A stretch of DNA of 64,000 bases from Thalassospira povalilytica (GTDB taxonomy: Bacteria; Pseudomonadota; Alphaproteobacteria; Rhodospirillales; Thalassospiraceae): the NCBI RefSeq assembly GCF_002844235.1, contig NZ_PGTS01000007.1, positions 1 through 64,000 of the forward strand, given 5' to 3'. Under the pieces are notes generated by a model. The model saw only the letters and a program-made list of their open reading frames with translations, did no database searches and was not told the origin of the DNA. Shown here piece by piece: positions 22,204-32,180 of this stretch; position 1 is the first letter of the stretch; every line of letters starts with the position of its first letter. The translations under genes and the position numbers were made by a program.

Positions 22204-22626
22204 TCATACGCCAAAACGGACATGTCCGTTGGCATCAATGGCCCAGGCCGGGTTCCATGCGATTTCCCATGCATGTCCGTCCGGGTCGGCAACATAGCCC
22301 CGCAATCCGCCATAGGGTGGTGCATCGGCCGGGCGCAACATTTTGCCACCCGCCGCGATCAGCCGGTCCATCAGTTCACCGACCTGATGGCCATCTGCGA
22401 CATTATGGGCAAGTGAAAAGGCCGATGGACCATCCCCTTCGGGGCGTTGCATATCATCAAGCAACGCGTCCTTTAACCAGGTCCCCAGAACAAACCCGTT
22501 CATCTGGTAAAAACTGATATCGGCATTTTCAAACACCGGGACCCAGCCAAAGCCGCGCTGATAAAAGCGCCGCGACCGGTCAAGATCGCTAATTCCAAGC
22601 GTAATGACAGAGATTTGCTGTTGCAT
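22204..22626 (-). CDS. VOC-family (glyoxalase/bleomycin resistance) protein
   Basis: A vicinal-oxygen-chelate domain protein of 140 residues. It has VITLGISDLDRSRRFYQRGFGW at the start and YVADPDGHAWEIAWNP at the end. The start ATG at 22626 has AAAGGA at good spacing; an ATG two codons earlier sits on the ribosome site. It lies convergent to the kinase gene, so it is probably an independent unit. The substrate is unknown. Metal-ligand residues are partly present, but enzymatic activity cannot be asserted. Confidence 0.8.
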   Translation of the reverse strand: MQQQISVITLGISDLDRSRRFYQRGFGWVPVFENADISFYQMNGFVLGTWLKDALLDDMQRPEGDGPSAFSLAHNVADGHQVGELMDRLIAAGGKMLRPADAPPYGGLRGYVADPDGHAWEIAWNPAWAIDANGHVRFGV

Positions 22627-22852
22627 GGCCATTCCTTTCTGTTGGCGTGCGCACATTGCACGCATCCTGAAAGTCATGGGCCGTTACAGCGCAACGGAAG
22701 GACCCGCATCTGCGGGGGCCGGGCCAACCGCACCGACCTAACCTGTTTTTGACCCTTTATGGCTACCAGATCGGCGTGAAAAAGCAAGGTCCGTATCACC
22801 GAAATTCCTGCTGCCCGGGCAGTGATGCGCTGTGAAATGTTGCATTTGCGAG

Positions 22853-22867
22853 TGGACATTTTGTCTT
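22853..22867. promoter_or_regulatory. Upstream activator site 1 (imperfect)
   Basis: TGGACA-TTT-TGTCTT is an imperfect copy of the perfect palindrome at 22895-22909. Its centre lies 42 bp (four helical turns) from that of site 2 and about 142 bp upstream of the predicted transcription start. The rest of 22627-23091 holds these sites, the promoter and the leader of the transporter gene. Confidence 0.75.
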
Positions 22868-22894
22868 GATACCACCTTGGCGTGTGGAAAAAGT

Positions 22895-22909
22895 TGGACA
22901 TTTTGTCCA
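22895..22909. promoter_or_regulatory. Upstream activator site 2 (perfect palindrome)
   Basis: TGGACA-TTT-TGTCCA is a perfect inverted repeat centred about 100 bp before the predicted start. This is the normal distance for an NtrC-type enhancer. The likely ligand is the regulator encoded at 18716-20167. Confidence 0.8.
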
Positions 22910-22975
22910 TGCGCGTGCGGTGCAATATGGGGCAATTTAAGGGCGAAGTGGCGGAAATCATGGCATTTTTTCGGA

Positions 22976-22990
22976 TGGCACAGCGATTGC
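22976..22990 (+). promoter_or_regulatory. Sigma-54 (-24/-12) promoter
   Basis: TGGCACAGCGATTGC has TGGCAC, five bases, then TTGC, which is the sigma-54 consensus with exact GG-to-GC spacing. Transcription would start near 23002, giving a leader of about 90 bases to the transporter ATG at 23092. Confidence 0.88.
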
Positions 22991-23091
22991 GATAAAGAGG
23001 GTTCGGGGTTCTACCGTGGTTGCCCTGCACAATGCCTTCAACCGGGGGTGGGCAAGGCAAGAAGATCAAAATGCCGGGAGGTAACAACGAC

Positions 23092-24825
23092 ATGTTTGAT
23101 AAGCTTAAAAAAGAACATATCGTCGCCAGCGACGATTTTAACCGCTGGAAGGTGCCGCCAGCGTCTATTGCAATTCATCTATGTATTGGCTCTGTGTATG
23201 CATGGAGCATTTTTAACCCGCCACTGATCAAGGAATTCGGCGTGGTTGCAGCAAGTTCCGGTGACTGGGGCCTGCAATCCGTTGTCTGGATTTTCTCTGT
23301 TGCGATCGTCAGCCTGGGTCTTGCTGCTGCATTTGGCGGCAAGTGGCTTGAAGAAGTCGGCCCGCGTATGGTCGGCGTTGTCGCAGCTTTCTGCTGGGGC
23401 GGTGGTTTCATTATTGGCGGTCTTGGTATTGCCAGCCATCAATTGTGGCTTGTCTATCTTGGCTATGGCGTGATTGGCGGGGCCGGGCTTGGCCTTGGCT
23501 ATGTGTCGCCGGTCTCGACCCTGATCCGCTGGTTCCCGGACCGGCGCGGGATGGCAACGGGCATGGCCATCATGGGCTTTGGCGGTGGTGCGATGATCGC
23601 AACCCCGATCAAGGAAGGCCTGCTTTCGGTTTTCTACAAGGTTCCTGAATATCTTGGCCCGGAAAGTGCGGTTAACCTTGTTACCGAAGGTGGCAAGCGT
23701 ATGGCCGAAGTCGGTGGCCAGATGGTCGAAGTCGTTGTGGCAGGTGCAGCACAGGTTGCTGCCGCACCGGTTCCGATCGAAGAAGGCGTCTATGTTGCCG
23801 GCACGGGTAATACCGGTGCTGCCAGCACCTTCTTCACGCTCGGGATTGCCTATTTCATCGTCATGATCATCGCATCCTTCTCGTATCGTGTGCCGCGTGA
23901 TGGCTGGCTGCCCAAAGGCTGGACCCCGCCGACCGCAGACACCGCATCCAAGCGCATGATCACGCAGAAAAACGTCCATATCGACCAGGCACTGAAAACC
24001 CCGCAATTCTATCTGCTGTGGATTGTTCTGTGCTTCAACGTGACGGCGGGCATCGGGGTGATTGGCGTTGCCAAAACCATGATGTCGGAAATCTTTGGCA
24101 CGACCTTGCCGCTGGTGGTCAATTCGGCTTTTGCGGCGACCTATGTGTTCATGATTTCGGTCTTTAACATGTGTGGCCGCTTCTTCTGGGCGTCCATGTC
24201 GGACTATATCGGTCGCAAGAACACCTATTACTGCTTCTTCATTCTGGGAATCGCACTTTATCTGTCGATCCCGTTTGCCGCAGAACAGGTCAGTATCAAC
24301 CCGGCTGTCACCTGGCTTGTAATGTTCTATGCCGCAACCATGATCATCTTCACGATGTATGGCGGTGGTTTTGCAACCATTCCGGCCTATCTGGCGGACG
24401 TGTTCGGCACCAAATATGTCGGCGGTATCCATGGTCGTCTTCTGACCGCATGGAGCACGGCTGGCGTTCTTGGCCCGCTGGCAATCACCCAGCTGCGTCA
24501 GACCTCGGTCACCAATTCGATCAAGGATCTGGCAAGCAAGGTCGATCCGGCGGCATTCCAGGCCAAATTCGGTGCCGGTATCGAACAGCTTGATCAGCTG
24601 GTTGCGGCCAAAACCGTAACCATCGGTCGTCTGATGGAAATCGCACCGGCCGGTACGGTCGATCCGACGTCGAGCCTCTATAACACCACCATGTATGCGA
24701 TGGCGGCACTTCTGGCGATTGCGCTTGTTGCCAACAAGCTGGTCCGTCCGATTGACGACAAGCACTACATGGAAACGCAGGACGGTGGTGCAACCACCGG
24801 ACAGGAAGCAACTTCCAAAGCGTAA
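23092..24825 (+). CDS. OFA-family MFS transporter (oxalate/formate antiporter type)
   Basis: A transporter of 577 residues with 12 predicted membrane helices. CIGSVYAWSIFNPPL in TM1, WFPDRRGMATGMAIMGFG in TM4-5, and SDYIGRKNTYYCFF in TM8-9 match OxlT-like proteins. It is longer than the usual 400-430: an extra, Val/Ala/Glu-rich insert (about residues 185-250) separates TM6 from the preceding part, and the C-terminus before the last helix is also extended (KVDPAAFQAKFGAGIEQL). ATG 23092 has GGGAGG upstream. The sigma-54 promoter and paired UAS, plus the nearby formate dehydrogenase, point to a small carboxylate such as formate, oxalate or lactate. The substrate is unproven. Confidence 0.88.
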   Translation: MFDKLKKEHIVASDDFNRWKVPPASIAIHLCIGSVYAWSIFNPPLIKEFGVVAASSGDWGLQSVVWIFSVAIVSLGLAAAFGGKWLEEVGPRMVGVVAAFCWGGGFIIGGLGIASHQLWLVYLGYGVIGGAGLGLGYVSPVSTLIRWFPDRRGMATGMAIMGFGGGAMIATPIKEGLLSVFYKVPEYLGPESAVNLVTEGGKRMAEVGGQMVEVVVAGAAQVAAAPVPIEEGVYVAGTGNTGAASTFFTLGIAYFIVMIIASFSYRVPRDGWLPKGWTPPTADTASKRMITQKNVHIDQALKTPQFYLLWIVLCFNVTAGIGVIGVAKTMMSEIFGTTLPLVVNSAFAATYVFMISVFNMCGRFFWASMSDYIGRKNTYYCFFILGIALYLSIPFAAEQVSINPAVTWLVMFYAATMIIFTMYGGGFATIPAYLADVFGTKYVGGIHGRLLTAWSTAGVLGPLAITQLRQTSVTNSIKDLASKVDPAAFQAKFGAGIEQLDQLVAAKTVTIGRLMEIAPAGTVDPTSSLYNTTMYAMAALLAIALVANKLVRPIDDKHYMETQDGGATTGQEATSKA

Positions 24826-24894: not shown

Positions 24895-25127
24895 ATTTTG
24901 GGGGCATGATTGGCACAGTCATGTCTTGGGTCCGGGTTCCGTTCATCCAGCCCGGACCTGCGTTCTGTTGCAGGAATAACCTTTTTGCCCGTCGGGGTAA
25001 TCGGTTATCCTGCAACCAGAACACACAAGCGTCACAACGCATGTTTTCCAATCTCGCTTCGGCCCGACAATTGGCCGACTTCAACGCCCGATAAAAGCAT
25101 GCCGCGAAACCGGTTGCCGGAAGTGAT
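24895..25127. other. Intergenic region before lysR
   Basis: This stretch holds no gene I can support. It contains an imperfect inverted repeat, AGGAATAACC (about 24970) with GGTTATCCT (about 25013), that could bind the LysR protein. The GGAAG at 25119 is the ribosome site for lysR. Confidence 0.4.
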
Positions 25128-26047: not shown

Positions 26048-26143
26048 GCGTAACGGGATGGCTTTATTGAACGGGCACCACAGATGCCCGACACTATTAA
26101 AAACAATAAATATAACTGTAACATGCTTGAGAGAGAGGCTTGC

Positions 26144-26617
26144 ATGTCGGAAACGACCGAGGACCAGAATGTCCGCGTCGAGGCCATTTGTGATCAGATG
26201 ATCACGATGGAAGGCCCGCTCCTTCCCATTTTGCACGAAGTGCAGGAAGAGTTCGGCCATATCCCCGAAGGCGCACTTCAAACAATCGCCAAGAAACTGA
26301 ACCTCAGCCGGGCCGAAGTCCACGGGGTTGCAAGTTTCTATCACGACTTCCGCGAAGAAAAGGCCGGCAAACATATCATCAAGATTTGCCGTGCCGAGGC
26401 CTGCCAGGCAATGGGGGCCGACGCGCTCGCCGATCAGGTGCGCCGTCATCTTCGGGTGGATTGGTCGCAAACCACAGCGGATCGCAAGATCACGCTGGAA
26501 CCAGTTTTCTGTCTTGGCCTGTGTGCCTGTGCACCTGCGGCCATGGTCGATGGCAAGGTGGTCGGGCGCGTGACCAGTGATCGTATGAACCGCATTCTCG
26601 ATGAGGTGGGCGCATGA
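26144..26617 (+). CDS. fdsG: NAD-dependent formate dehydrogenase gamma subunit
   Basis: A [2Fe-2S] thioredoxin-fold protein of 157 residues, related to NuoE. Ligand cysteines are in CRAEACQAMG and CLGLCACAP. It transfers electrons between the diaphorase subunit and the alpha subunit. ATG 26144 (MSETTEDQ) has AGAGAGG upstream. An in-frame ATG at 26123 lacks a ribosome site. It is the first gene of fdsGBA-D-fdhD and overlaps fdsB by four bases. Confidence 0.93.
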   Translation: MSETTEDQNVRVEAICDQMITMEGPLLPILHEVQEEFGHIPEGALQTIAKKLNLSRAEVHGVASFYHDFREEKAGKHIIKICRAEACQAMGADALADQVRRHLRVDWSQTTADRKITLEPVFCLGLCACAPAAMVDGKVVGRVTSDRMNRILDEVGA

Positions 26618-28170
26618 CGATCAAGGTTTATGTCCCGCTTGATTCCGGTGCGGTGGCCCTTGGGGCCGATGATGTCGCAACCGCGATTGCCGCCAAGGCC
26701 GCAAAGTCCGGTGCCGATATCAAAATCGTGCGCAACGGATCGTTTGGCATGTATTGGCTTGAACCGATGGTCGAGGTGGAAACACCGCGCGGTCGCGTTG
26801 CCTATGGCCCGGTCAGCACCGATGACATCGATACCCTGTTTGATGCAGATTTTCTGACCGGCGGCGATCACAAGCTTTATCTTGGTCGGACCAGCGATAT
26901 TCCGTTCCTGAAAAGCCAGTCGCGTCTGACCTTCCAGCGTTGCGGCATCATTGATCCGCTTTCGCTTGATGATTACCGTGCCCATGACGGTCTGTCCGGT
27001 CTTGAGAACGCGTTGAAAATGTCGGCAGCCGACATCGTCAAGGCGGTAACTGACAGCGGCCTTCGCGGACGCGGGGGTGCCGGTTTCCCGACCGGGATCA
27101 AATGGAACACGGTGCGCGAAGCCGAAGGTGATCAGAAATACATCGTCTGTAACGCCGACGAAGGCGACAGCGGCACCTTTGCCGATCGCATGATCATGGA
27201 AGGCGAACCCTTTGTCCTGATCGAAGGCATGATCATTGCCGGTCTCGCGACCGGGGCGACCAAGGGATATGTCTATACCCGTTCGGAATATCCCGATGCT
27301 ATCCGCATCATGACCGAGGCCATAAAAGTTGCCCGTTCTGCCGGGGTGTTGGGCACCAATATCCTCGGATCGGGCAAGACCTTTGATATGGAAGTCCGTA
27401 TGGGGGCAGGGGCCTATGTCTGTGGCGAGGAAACCTCGCTTCTTAACAGCATGGAAGGCAAGCGTGGTGTCGTTCGTGCCAAGCCGCCGCTTCCCGCCCT
27501 GAAAGGTTTCCTTGGCCGTCCGACGGTTGTCAATAACGTGATTTCTCTGTGCTCGGTGCCGGTCATTCTTGAAAAGGGGCCGGAATATTACCGTGATTTC
27601 GGCATGGGCCGGTCACGCGGCACCATCCCGATCCAGATTGCCGGCAATGTCAAACATGGCGGGCTTTATGAAATCGGCTTTGGCATGACGCTGGGTGAAA
27701 TCGTCGAACAGATCGGCGGTGGCACCGCATCGGGACGCCCGATCAAGGCGGTTCAGGTTGGCGGTCCTTTGGGGGCCTATTTCCCCCGCGAATTGTTTGA
27801 CACGCCCTTTGATTATGAAGAATTCGCCAAGCGTGATGGTCTGATCGGTCATGCCGGTGTGGTCGTTTTTGACGACACGGTCGACATGATGAAACAGGCC
27901 CGTTTCGCCATGGAATTCTGTGCCATTGAATCATGCGGTAAATGCACACCGTGCCGGATCGGATCGATCCGTGGCACCGAAGTGGTCGACAAACTTGAAC
28001 GTGGCGAAGATCCGGAATTGCAGATCGATCTTCTGCGCGATCTTTGTGAAACCATGAAGTTCGGATCGTTGTGCGCGCTCGGCGGATTTACGCCCTATCC
28101 GGTGATGAGCGCGATTACCCATTTCCCTGATGATTTCAAGCCGCGTGCGCTTGATATAGCTGCGGAGTAA
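26614..28170 (+). CDS. fdsB: NAD-dependent formate dehydrogenase beta subunit
   Basis: A diaphorase subunit of 518 residues, related to NuoF with an N-terminal NuoE-like part. The NADH/FMN region has RGRGGAGFPTGIKWN and NADEGDSGTFADRM. The [4Fe-4S] ligands are in ESCGKCTPCRIGS near residue 440. It reduces NAD+ with electrons from formate through FMN. It is translated from an ATGA overlap with fdsG. Confidence 0.95.
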   Translation: MTIKVYVPLDSGAVALGADDVATAIAAKAAKSGADIKIVRNGSFGMYWLEPMVEVETPRGRVAYGPVSTDDIDTLFDADFLTGGDHKLYLGRTSDIPFLKSQSRLTFQRCGIIDPLSLDDYRAHDGLSGLENALKMSAADIVKAVTDSGLRGRGGAGFPTGIKWNTVREAEGDQKYIVCNADEGDSGTFADRMIMEGEPFVLIEGMIIAGLATGATKGYVYTRSEYPDAIRIMTEAIKVARSAGVLGTNILGSGKTFDMEVRMGAGAYVCGEETSLLNSMEGKRGVVRAKPPLPALKGFLGRPTVVNNVISLCSVPVILEKGPEYYRDFGMGRSRGTIPIQIAGNVKHGGLYEIGFGMTLGEIVEQIGGGTASGRPIKAVQVGGPLGAYFPRELFDTPFDYEEFAKRDGLIGHAGVVVFDDTVDMMKQARFAMEFCAIESCGKCTPCRIGSIRGTEVVDKLERGEDPELQIDLLRDLCETMKFGSLCALGGFTPYPVMSAITHFPDDFKPRALDIAAE

Positions 28171-28174
28171 TACG

Positions 28175-31054
28175 ATGTCCTTGATCAAAGAAGTCGACTA
28201 CGGAACTCCTGCCGCCAAATCCGAAAAAACCGTCACGCTGACCATTGATGGCAAGAACGTGACCGTGCCCGAAGGCACATCGGTTATGCGGGCCTCGATG
28301 GAAGCAGGCATTCAGGTGCCCAAACTCTGTGCGACCGACATGGTCGATGCATTCGGTTCCTGCCGTTTGTGTCTGGTCGAAGTCGAAGGCCGCAACGGAA
28401 CCCCGGCATCCTGTACCACACCGGCGGCAGACGGCATGGTGGTCCACACCCAGACCGAGCGGCTTAAAAAAATCCGCAAAGGGGTGATGGAACTTTATAT
28501 CTCCGACCATCCGCTTGATTGCCTGACCTGCGCGGCCAATGGTGATTGCGAACTTCAGGACATGGCAGGCGCGGTTGGCCTGCGCGATGTGCGCTATGGC
28601 TATGACGGCGGCAACCATGTCGAGGTCCGCCAGAATGGTGAAGAAAATCCGCGCTATATGGCAAAGGATGAAACCAACCCGTATTTCACCTATGACCCGT
28701 CGAAATGCATTGTCTGTTCGCGCTGCGTGCGGGCCTGCGAAGAAGTGCAGGGCACCTTTGCCCTGACCATCGAAGGTCGCGGTTTTGAATCCCGCGTGTC
28801 ACCGGGCATGCACGAAGATTTCCTTGATTCCGAATGCGTATCCTGTGGTGCCTGTGTTCAGGCCTGCCCGACCGCAACGCTTCAGGAAAAATCGGTCATT
28901 GAAATCGGTCAACCCGAACATTCGGTCGTTACCACCTGTGCCTATTGCGGGGTTGGCTGTTCGTTCAAGGCCGAAATGCGTGGCGAGGAACTGGTGCGCA
29001 TGGTCCCCTATAAGGATGGCCGGGCCAACCGGGGGCATTCCTGTGTGAAGGGGCGCTTTGCCTATGGCTATGCCAATCACAAGGACCGCATCCTCAACCC
29101 GATGATCCGCGAAAATGTCAATGACCCCTGGCAGGAAGTCAGTTGGGAAGAGGCCCTTCGCTTTACTGCTGACAAGTTCAAGGGCATCCAGGCCAAATAC
29201 GGCAAGGGTGCCTTGGGCGGGATCACGTCATCGCGGTGCACGAACGAGGAAACCTTCCTGGTTCAGAAACTGATCCGTGCCGGGTTCGGTAATAACAATG
29301 TCGATACCTGTGCGCGTGTCTGTCATTCGCCAACCGGGTATGGCCTGAAAACCACGTTTGGGACATCGGCCGGGACGCAGGATTTTGATTCTGTCGAACA
29401 TACCGATGTGGTCATCCTGATCGGGGCCAACCCGACTGACGGGCATCCTGTTTTTGCCTCGCGTTTGAAAAAACGCCTGCGTCAGGGGGCGAAACTGATC
29501 GTGATTGATCCGCGTCGGATTGACCTGGTCCGTTCCCCGCATATCGAAGCTGTCGCGCATCTGGCGCTGCGTCCGGGCACCAATGTCGCGGTACTGACGT
29601 CACTTTCCCATGTGATTGTGACCGAAGGCCTGTTTGACGAAACGTTTGTCCGTGAACGCTGTGACTGGGATGAATTCCAGGATTGGGCAACATTTGTTTC
29701 CGATCCGCGCCACAGCCCCGAAGCCATTGCGGGTGTCACCGGTGTTGATGCCCAGACCATGCGCGAAGCCGCACGGGCCTTTGCCACGGGTGGCAATGGT
29801 GCGATCTATTACGGGCTTGGCGTGACCGAACACAGTCAGGGGTCAACCACCGTGATGGCGATTGCCAACCTTGCCATGGCGACCGGCAATATCGGCCGTC
29901 CGGGCGTTGGCGTGAACCCGCTGCGTGGTCAGAACAATGTGCAGGGTTCCTGTGACATGGGATCGTTCCCGCACGAATTGCCGGGCTATCGCCATATTCA
30001 GGACAGTGCCACCCGCGATATCTTTGAAGATATCTGGGGGGTTAAACTTGATGACGAACCGGGGCTTCGGATCCCCAACATGCTTGATGCCGCTGTCGAA
30101 GGCACGTTCAAGGGCATCTATATTCAGGGCGAGGATATCCTGCAATCCGATCCCGATACCAAACATGTGGCCGCCGGTCTTGCGGCGATGGAATGTGTTG
30201 TCGTCCACGACCTGTTCCTGAACGAAACCGCGAACTATGCCCATGTGTTCCTGCCCGGTTCGACCTTCCTTGAAAAGGATGGCACGTTTACCAACGCCGA
30301 ACGCCGCATCAACCGCGTGCGCAAGGTGATGACGCCAAAGAACGGCTTTGCCGATTGGGAAGTGACCCAGAACCTTGCCCGTGCGATGGGCCAGAACTGG
30401 AATTACACCCATCCGTCACAGGTCATGGCCGAAATTGCGGCAACCACGCCAAGCTTTGCCAATGTGACCTATGACCTTTTGGAACGCGAAGGTTCGGTAC
30501 AATGGCCATGCAATGACAAGGCCCCGCTGGGGACACCGGTCATGCATATGGATGGTTTCGTACGCGGCAAGGGCAAGTTTGTGGTGACCGAATATGTCGC
30601 CACCGATGAACGTACCGGGCCGCGTTTCCCGCTGCTTCTGACGACCGGCCGTATCCTGAGCCAGTACAATGTGGGCGCACAGACCCGCCGTACCGAAAAT
30701 ACCGCCTGGCACAAGGAAGACCTTCTGGAAATCCATCCCCATGATGCCGAACAGCGCGGCATTCGCGAAGGCGACTGGATCCGTCTTGCATCGCGATCGG
30801 GCGAAACATCCCTTCGCGCCACCATTACCGATCGTGTGGCACCGGGCGTGGTTTACACCACATTCCACCATCCGGGGACACAGGCCAACGTGATCACCAC
30901 CGACTTTACCGACTGGGCAACCAACTGTCCGGAATACAAAGTCACCGCCGTTCAGGTTTCCGCATCAAACGGACCATCTGAATGGCAGGTGGAATATGAT
31001 CGTCAGGCCGAACAGGCGCGCCGGATCAAACCGCGTGTCGATGCCGCCGAATAG
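28175..31054 (+). CDS. fdsA: NAD-dependent formate dehydrogenase alpha (molybdenum) subunit
   Basis: Catalytic subunit of 959 residues. N-terminally there is a [2Fe-2S] domain (CATDM, CRLC), a His-Cys [4Fe-4S] region (HPLDCLTCAANGDC) and two ferredoxin-type clusters (CIVCSRCVRAC; CVSCGACVQAC). The FDH cluster motif is CAYCGVGCSF, and then comes the Mo-bis-MGD domain. The metal ligand is Cys (about 383) in ARVCHSPTG, not selenocysteine, and no in-frame TGA is used. It oxidises formate to CO2 in the cytoplasm with FdsB/G. ATG 28175 has GGAG upstream and lies 4 bases after fdsB. Confidence 0.96.
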   Translation: MSLIKEVDYGTPAAKSEKTVTLTIDGKNVTVPEGTSVMRASMEAGIQVPKLCATDMVDAFGSCRLCLVEVEGRNGTPASCTTPAADGMVVHTQTERLKKIRKGVMELYISDHPLDCLTCAANGDCELQDMAGAVGLRDVRYGYDGGNHVEVRQNGEENPRYMAKDETNPYFTYDPSKCIVCSRCVRACEEVQGTFALTIEGRGFESRVSPGMHEDFLDSECVSCGACVQACPTATLQEKSVIEIGQPEHSVVTTCAYCGVGCSFKAEMRGEELVRMVPYKDGRANRGHSCVKGRFAYGYANHKDRILNPMIRENVNDPWQEVSWEEALRFTADKFKGIQAKYGKGALGGITSSRCTNEETFLVQKLIRAGFGNNNVDTCARVCHSPTGYGLKTTFGTSAGTQDFDSVEHTDVVILIGANPTDGHPVFASRLKKRLRQGAKLIVIDPRRIDLVRSPHIEAVAHLALRPGTNVAVLTSLSHVIVTEGLFDETFVRERCDWDEFQDWATFVSDPRHSPEAIAGVTGVDAQTMREAARAFATGGNGAIYYGLGVTEHSQGSTTVMAIANLAMATGNIGRPGVGVNPLRGQNNVQGSCDMGSFPHELPGYRHIQDSATRDIFEDIWGVKLDDEPGLRIPNMLDAAVEGTFKGIYIQGEDILQSDPDTKHVAAGLAAMECVVVHDLFLNETANYAHVFLPGSTFLEKDGTFTNAERRINRVRKVMTPKNGFADWEVTQNLARAMGQNWNYTHPSQVMAEIAATTPSFANVTYDLLEREGSVQWPCNDKAPLGTPVMHMDGFVRGKGKFVVTEYVATDERTGPRFPLLLTTGRILSQYNVGAQTRRTENTAWHKEDLLEIHPHDAEQRGIREGDWIRLASRSGETSLRATITDRVAPGVVYTTFHHPGTQANVITTDFTDWATNCPEYKVTAVQVSASNGPSEWQVEYDRQAEQARRIKPRVDAAE

Positions 31055-31149: not shown

Positions 31150-31374
31150 ATGGCACCTGACAAGCTTGTCTATATGGCCAATCAGATCGCGACATTTTTC
31201 AAATCCAAACCCCACGAAGAAGGGGTGGCCGGTGTTGCCGGTCATATCAGCGATTTCTGGGAACCGCGTATGCGCAAACAATTGTTTGCCCTGATTGCCG
31301 ACGGGTATGACGGGATTGACCCGCTTGTGCTTGAAGCTGCCCCGATGATCCGCAAGGTCAAGGAACCTGCATGA
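31150..31374 (+). CDS. fdsD: Formate dehydrogenase delta subunit
   Basis: A small protein of 74 residues recognised as FdsD by MANQIATFFKSKPHEEGVAGVAGHISDFWEPRMRKQL. It has been reported as a small subunit or assembly partner of Fds-type enzymes. It lies between fdsA and fdhD and overlaps fdhD by four bases. Confidence 0.92.
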   Translation: MAPDKLVYMANQIATFFKSKPHEEGVAGVAGHISDFWEPRMRKQLFALIADGYDGIDPLVLEAAPMIRKVKEPA

Positions 31375-32180
31375 CGCCCAAGCCTTCCGAGAACCGCATC
31401 CTTGACGGGCGCGATGTTGATCTTGCCCGTGCCATTTCGCGTGATGATGCCAATGACGATGCCCCGATGATGTTGCAGCCGGAAGTTCCGGCTGCATTGA
31501 CTTTCAATGGCAAATCCCATGCGGTGATGATGGTGTCGCCCCATGATCTCGAAGATTTCATGATCGGCTTTGCCCTGTCCGAAGGCATCGTTGATGACAT
31601 TTCCCAGATCACACTGCGCGAAGTGCGCAAAACCCTTCAGGGCTATGTGATCGAAGCCGACCTGCATGAAGATGTGTTTGACCGTCTTGATGAACGTCAA
31701 CGCACCCTTGAAGGCCGGTCGGGATGTGGTCTGTGCGGGGTGCAATCACTTGAAGCCGTCGCGATGGACAAGATCGGCAAGGTCACGCCGGGCAATATGG
31801 CACAGGATGTCGTGTTACAGGCCATCGACGCCTTGCCCGATCATCAGACCCGCAACCGCGAAGGCGGCGGGCTTTTGCATGCCAGCGCCTTTGTCGATGT
31901 TAGCGGTAACATCAAGCTGGTCCGCGAAGATATCGGACGTCATAACGCCCTTGATAAGGTGCTCGGTGCGGTTGCCCGTCAGGGCATTGATACTGCCGGT
32001 GGCTTTGTGCTGATGACCAGTCGCTGTTCCTATGAAATCGTCACCAAAACCGTGCAATGCGGGGTGGGTGGGCTTGTGACCCTGTCGGGGCCGACCCTGA
32101 CGGCGGTGAACCTTGCACGGCAGGCGGGGCTTACCCTGATTTGTCGTGAACGGCGCGGGCTGTTTCGCCGTTTTGCCTGA
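31371..32180 (+). CDS. fdhD: Formate dehydrogenase accessory sulfurtransferase
   Basis: An FdhD/FdsC family protein of 269 residues. It inserts sulfur into the Mo-bis-MGD cofactor before delivery to the alpha subunit. The CxxC pair is in SGCGLCGVQS near residue 119, and the C-terminal GGVGGLVTLSGPT and RRGLFRRF are typical. ATG in an ATGA overlap with fdsD. It is the last gene of the fds operon. Confidence 0.93.
   Translation: MTPKPSENRILDGRDVDLARAISRDDANDDAPMMLQPEVPAALTFNGKSHAVMMVSPHDLEDFMIGFALSEGIVDDISQITLREVRKTLQGYVIEADLHEDVFDRLDERQRTLEGRSGCGLCGVQSLEAVAMDKIGKVTPGNMAQDVVLQAIDALPDHQTRNREGGGLLHASAFVDVSGNIKLVREDIGRHNALDKVLGAVARQGIDTAGGFVLMTSRCSYEIVTKTVQCGVGGLVTLSGPTLTAVNLARQAGLTLICRERRGLFRRFA

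Follow-up and report, generated by a model that had tools for sequence, protein, structure and literature searches.

Genes and sites at the transporter locus

The window analyzed here, a stretch of 64,000 nt (64 kb) from Thalassospira povalilytica, carries genes for an NtrC-type response regulator, a membrane histidine kinase, a long OFA/monocarboxylate transporter and an NAD-linked formate dehydrogenase (Table 1). A glyoxalase-like gene on the minus strand (22204–22677), absent from the preliminary description, lies between the kinase gene and two palindromes that precede the transporter gene.

Table 1. Features of the transporter locus and the evidence for each
Feature	Position	Strand	Basis
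NtrC-type response regulator, 483 aa	18716..20167	+	Pfam Response_reg, Sigma54_activat and HTH_8 over cut-off
Membrane sensor histidine kinase, 672 aa	20143..22161	+	Pfam; structure model; structural matches
Distal palindrome, TGGACATTTTGTCTT	22853-22867	+	Read from sequence; 2 mismatches
Proximal palindrome, TGGACATTTTGTCCA, predicted regulator site	22895-22909	+	Read from sequence; perfect
Sigma-54 (-24/-12) promoter, TGGCACAGCGATTGC	22976-22990	+	Read from sequence; 28/28 congeners; rpoN in genome
Transcription start, predicted	23002	+	Inferred from position of -12 element
Ribosome binding site, GGGAGG	23076-23081	+	Sequence; CCGGGAGG block kept in congeners
Long OFA/monocarboxylate MFS transporter, 577 aa	23092..24825	+	MFS_1; NF049980 over cut-off
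FdsG, NAD-linked formate dehydrogenase gamma	26084..26617	+	NF004638 238.5 bits, cut-off 198
FdsB, NuoF-like subunit	26614..28170	+	Below NuoF cut-offs; name inferred from operon position
FdsA, molybdenum formate dehydrogenase alpha	28175..31054	+	TIGR01591 949 bits, cut-off 666
FdhD, formate dehydrogenase accessory protein	31371..32180	+	TIGR00129 over cut-off

The centers of the two palindromes are 42 bp apart. Given the predicted start, they fall 100 and 142 bp upstream of it, and the transporter ATG (position 23092) lies downstream of the GGGAGG element. Read directly, these coordinates bear out the preliminary description, which had placed one perfect and one imperfect copy at these distances, ahead of a consensus -24/-12 promoter. 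The promoter is the sole exact TGGCAC-N5-TTGC in the window, and the whole genome contains one rpoN gene. Neither motif is singly rare at low stringency: the palindrome with up to two mismatches has 4 matches in the window versus 2.7 expected, and the promoter motif with up to one mismatch has 9 versus 8.5. What stands above chance is the combination of palindromes with promoter, and its conservation.

The preliminary description had suggested a genome search for the palindrome as a means of defining the regulon. We ran this search, and the perfect 15-mer occurs a single time in the 4.4-Mb genome. Its 13-bp core is found at two further places, one a terminator-like hairpin adjoining an RpoH-type sigma gene and the other within an aldehyde dehydrogenase gene. 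None of the nine other 15-mers with one mismatch in the genome is accompanied by a convincing -24/-12 element. The regulon here thus looks like the OFA promoter alone, and the transporter is likely the only target in T. povalilytica, to judge from these motif matches. Downstream of the transporter gene, between it and a LysR gene, we noted an inverted repeat (GTTGCAGGAATAACC ... GGTTATCCTGCAAC, 24967–25016) that is a conserved block in congeners and is perhaps a LysR operator or an RNA element.

Conservation of the palindromes and promoter

To set the locus among its relatives, we compared 29 genomes, all Thalassospira. Transporter and kinase are present in the same 28 genomes, and one (G016) has neither. 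In all 28, the transporter gene is preceded by a -24/-12 element and, upstream of it, by two palindromes with centers separated by 42 or 43 bp. The arrangement, described earlier as a textbook enhancer with a sigma-54 promoter, is ordinary sigma-54 architecture, though highly conserved; its absence from relatives had been named as evidence that would count against it, and the sites occur in every congener that has the gene. The degenerate distal palindrome of this strain is the exception, with most congeners having a better copy. Across the 28 congeners, mean information is 1.98 bits for palindrome columns versus 0.75 for the flanks, which argues against chance motifs or an unremarkable inherited spacer. 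The near-chance rate of single motifs at low stringency is what speaks for that alternative, which is strongly disfavored and almost certainly wrong, given also the movement of the module with OFA and the results of scans described below.

Beyond the genus, a sample of 385 alphaproteobacterial genomes had the sensor part of the kinase in 9, and a larger collection had it at no fewer than 591 places; the relatives listed there are for the most part Alphaproteobacteria, including rhizobia and marine strains. Eighty loci were fetched. An OFA gene lies beside the kinase gene, on its downstream side, in 71 of these, spanning ∼32 genera or groups. With up to one mismatch allowed, GGACA-N3-TGTCC occurs between the two genes at least once in 70 of the 71 loci and at least twice in 68; in the remaining locus (Stappia), the palindrome copies have diverged and a -24/-12 element is present. 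Center spacing is 42–43 bp in Thalassospira, Stappia, Roseibium and Pacificispira, 20–24 bp in most Hyphomicrobiales, and 32 bp in one gammaproteobacterium. These values approximate four, two and three helical turns, so the helical phasing originally proposed for this one locus holds widely; only two spacings, one of 13 and one of 19 bp, are off whole turns. A fixed distance from palindrome to promoter, on the other hand, was rejected: it is ∼66 bp in most genera, versus 81 (22 genomes), 91 (5 genomes) or 68 (1 genome) in Thalassospira.

The OFA proteins beside the kinase form two clades only ∼40 percent identical to each other, so the switch has been kept although the transporter differs. In two congeners (L113 and L114), the OFA gene is ∼10 kb from the kinase gene, and the palindrome/promoter module stays with OFA. 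The same is seen in Methylorubrum extorquens CM4, where OFA precedes the regulator gene. When the 385 alphaproteobacterial genomes were scanned blind for the palindrome together with the promoter, 6 matched. In five, the match is an OFA promoter and the kinase is present (hypergeometric P ∼1e-8, a value that overstates independence because the loci are phylogenetically clustered, with many from Bradyrhizobium). The sixth match (G123) has only one palindrome, precedes a receiver-domain gene and comes from a genome that lacks such a kinase; it was set aside as chance. The control scan with the reversed pattern gave zero matches in the 385 genomes. Elsewhere in the 1.6 Mb of fetched loci, only two further modules were found (L152:1714 and L194:2645). 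Both loci are GAFTGA-positive with no OFA gene near the kinase gene; in each, the module stands ahead of an ABC transporter operon of the branched-chain-amino-acid type, which directly precedes the regulator gene.

Other features vary among the relatives. In the other OFA clade (L121–L184), 39 of 52 promoters have an IHF-like match (up to one mismatch), located between the enhancer and the -24/-12 element, compared with 3 percent of shuffles; in Thalassospira, such a match is seen in only 7 of 28 genomes and at varying positions, so we make no claim for it. Close relatives of the long OFA protein, 66–76 percent identical, occur in small alphaproteobacterial genomes (0.8–2.5 Mb) that lack the kinase (L079–L093), and one genome (G260) has three tandem copies, two with TAA inside the match. 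In a distant homologue (L108:6838–7242), the recognition helix of the regulator differs (DRKTLTRKL) and the OFA promoter has GGGGCA-TTT-TGCCCC-like repeats, a possible co-variation of protein and site.

The regulator and its predicted dependence on sigma-54

The preliminary description had also reported a GAFTGA-bearing NtrC-type regulator and its membrane kinase upstream, and domain searches with Pfam agree. The regulator combines in one chain a receiver (Asp86), a sigma-54 AAA+ domain with GAFTGA at aa 255–260, and a Fis-type HTH (aa 457–476); conserved palindromes upstream of a -24/-12 element also fit the NtrC type. Like NtrC/AtoC/DctD-type systems, this one pairs such a regulator with a membrane kinase, and paired upstream palindromes with the -24/-12 promoter of an uptake gene. 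It differs from them in its operator, GGACA-N3-TGTCC, in its predicted ligand, formate, and in scoring below the curated cut-offs for AtoC (391.7 versus 714), NtrC (367.6 versus 558.6) and AtoS (192.8 versus 646). No description of such a system was found in the open-access literature searched.

Three OFA loci, from Acidimangrovimonas, Allgaiera and Rhodobium (GAFPGA), have a lost or altered GAFTGA, and none of the three has a -24/-12 element. All have palindrome arrays with 42-bp steps: Acidimangrovimonas and Allgaiera have three copies each, and Rhodobium has two and a third, weaker one. By eye only, each array is followed by a -35-like box of the TTGAC type. Among GAFTGA-positive OFA loci, -24/-12 was scored in 64 of 68, and one of the four negatives (Dongia, L132) is a false negative. 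Loss of GAFTGA is thus associated with loss of -24/-12 (64/4 versus 0/3; Fisher P = 6e-4, with three loci on one side and the same overstatement of independence from clustering). OFA is missing altogether with 6 of 9 GAFTGA-negative regulators versus 3 of 71. It is conceivable, at a little under an even chance in our estimate, that in this predicted formate-sensing family a few lineages have left sigma-54, the enhancer-binding protein having been rewired to housekeeping polymerase.

These patterns also bear on whether the palindromes belong to another regulator, with the neighboring two-component pair acting elsewhere. The glyoxalase gene between kinase gene and promoter in the window would fit such an arrangement, yet the palindromes track the kinase–OFA pair across all those genera, and the type of promoter tracks the GAFTGA state of the regulator. 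We regard it as very unlikely. Control of the OFA promoter by the adjacent two-component pair is, by contrast with that alternative, strongly indicated.

Formate as the predicted signal and cargo

The kinase has a two-module Cache sensor with an sCache_3_3 domain (99.0 bits, cut-off 28.8), then HAMP, HisKA (H461) and HATPase domains. A structure model of the sensor (mean pLDDT 89) was best matched by 8PY1 (Z 15.3, rmsd 2.3 over 136 residues) and 8PY0 (Z 14.7, rmsd 2.2 over 151), both solved with formate; on structural re-alignment, further Cache domains come next at Z 13–14. Formate binding by PacF is influenced by its residues R142, T145 and T158, as cited in PMC12501870, and R254, T257 and T270 of the kinase have the same spacing (R-x2-T-x12-T). 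Among sCache_3_3 proteins with these residues, a gut chemoreceptor binds formate (PMC12415202). The three are kept in 80 of 80 kinases. As a discriminating marker, however, they were discarded: every sCache_3_3 domain examined carries them, including that of an MCP of the same genome, and their presence in Thalassospira chemoreceptors means that they mark the domain family and are no proof of ligand. One such chemoreceptor gene of this genome (L213, C3:512151–512465) encodes a single sCache_3_3 domain with the R/T/T residues and is likely a formate chemoreceptor.

The kinase and PacF, 8PY0 and 8PY1 (sCache_3_3 and Cache_3-Cache_2 formate chemoreceptors) thus share the Cache fold and the R/T/T formate positions. 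The differences are that here the domain controls a histidine kinase and that another module, CitA/DcuS-like, comes before it. Moreover, R/T/T lies in the C-terminal module of the kinase, whereas PacF binds formate in its distal module. Gene context points the same way as the structural matches. Formate dehydrogenase genes lie within ∼10 kb in 44 of 68 long loci (24 show none nearby), those of the window being FdsGBA and FdhD, and three kinds of the enzyme neighbor the kinase gene across loci. Where OFA is absent, the kinase gene sits within a formate dehydrogenase cluster (Sagittula), and in one OFA-less locus (L190) an operon with a formate-dehydrogenase-like large subunit has a pair of palindromes, spaced 41 bp, ahead of it. 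From the modeled fold, the R/T/T residues and these neighbors, the signal sensed by the kinase is most likely formate.

The transporter scores marginally above cut-off with NF049980, a model of SfMCT-like L-lactate MFS transporters (323.4 versus 320 bits). In alignments to OxlT and SfMCT, R363 corresponds to OxlT R272 and is kept in 71 of 71 OFA proteins, and W454 replaces OxlT K355 (Trp in 70/70, with one gap); of the Arg272 and Lys355 equivalents looked for in an OxlT-type antiporter, the first is therefore retained and the second is Trp. In OxlT, R272 binds a carboxylate, K355 binds the second carboxylate of oxalate, and K355 mutants are non-functional (PMC10070484). Retention of the arginine with loss of the lysine makes a monocarboxylate likelier than oxalate. 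An oxalate switch, with oxalate both sensed and carried on the model of the OxlT oxalate:formate antiporter, would suit the name of the OFA superfamily, and formate dehydrogenase would also serve oxalate breakdown. The Trp at the lysine position and a TIGR04259 score of 124.5 against a cut-off of 335 render it highly improbable.

The preliminary description had called the transporter much longer than usual OFA proteins. At 577 aa it does exceed the PDB chains of OxlT (427) and SfMCT (420), but its length is normal among its relatives, the other OFA clade being ∼600 aa. With both proteins it shares the MFS fold and the carboxylate-binding arginine; unlike them, it is ∼150 residues longer, lacks the OxlT lysine, and is coupled to a formate-type sensor. 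Could the same switch respond to and serve L-lactate or pyruvate? SfMCT is the closest solved relative, its L-lactate model is passed (if narrowly), and monocarboxylates are common OFA cargo. Set against this, the sensor is best matched by formate-bound domains and its gene is neighbored by those three kinds of formate dehydrogenase, so we consider these acids unlikely. The earlier guess that the acid carried by the transporter is also the one sensed can be narrowed to formate: we infer, with moderate confidence, that formate is both signal and cargo, the cargo being picked from the sensor and the context.

Taken together, the locus probably encodes a dedicated formate uptake switch. The kinase would sense formate outside the cytoplasmic membrane through the Cache module with the R/T/T pocket, and would phosphorylate the regulator. 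Regulator dimers would bind the two phased palindromes, as conservation and linkage suggest, and the GAFTGA loop would activate sigma-54 polymerase at -24/-12, as the motifs and their shared loss suggest. The OFA transporter would then take up formate, supplying the NAD-linked formate dehydrogenase whose genes follow just downstream. FhlA, the formate-responsive sigma-54 activator of E. coli, itself binds formate in the cytoplasm. The predicted switch would likewise tie formate-responsive sigma-54 activation to formate dehydrogenase; unlike FhlA, it would rely on a membrane kinase predicted to sense formate outside.

This analysis predicts which signal, operator, target and cargo belong to a two-component system present in hundreds of genomes (the at least 591 relatives), whose members have so far been labeled in databases only as 'cache domain-containing protein' and 'sigma-54 dependent regulator'. 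In soil, roots and sea water, the exchange of formate is of importance. Through the lineages that lack GAFTGA, one could examine how the way in which a sigma-54 activator works can change; if the proposed rewiring is true, they would represent a natural experiment.
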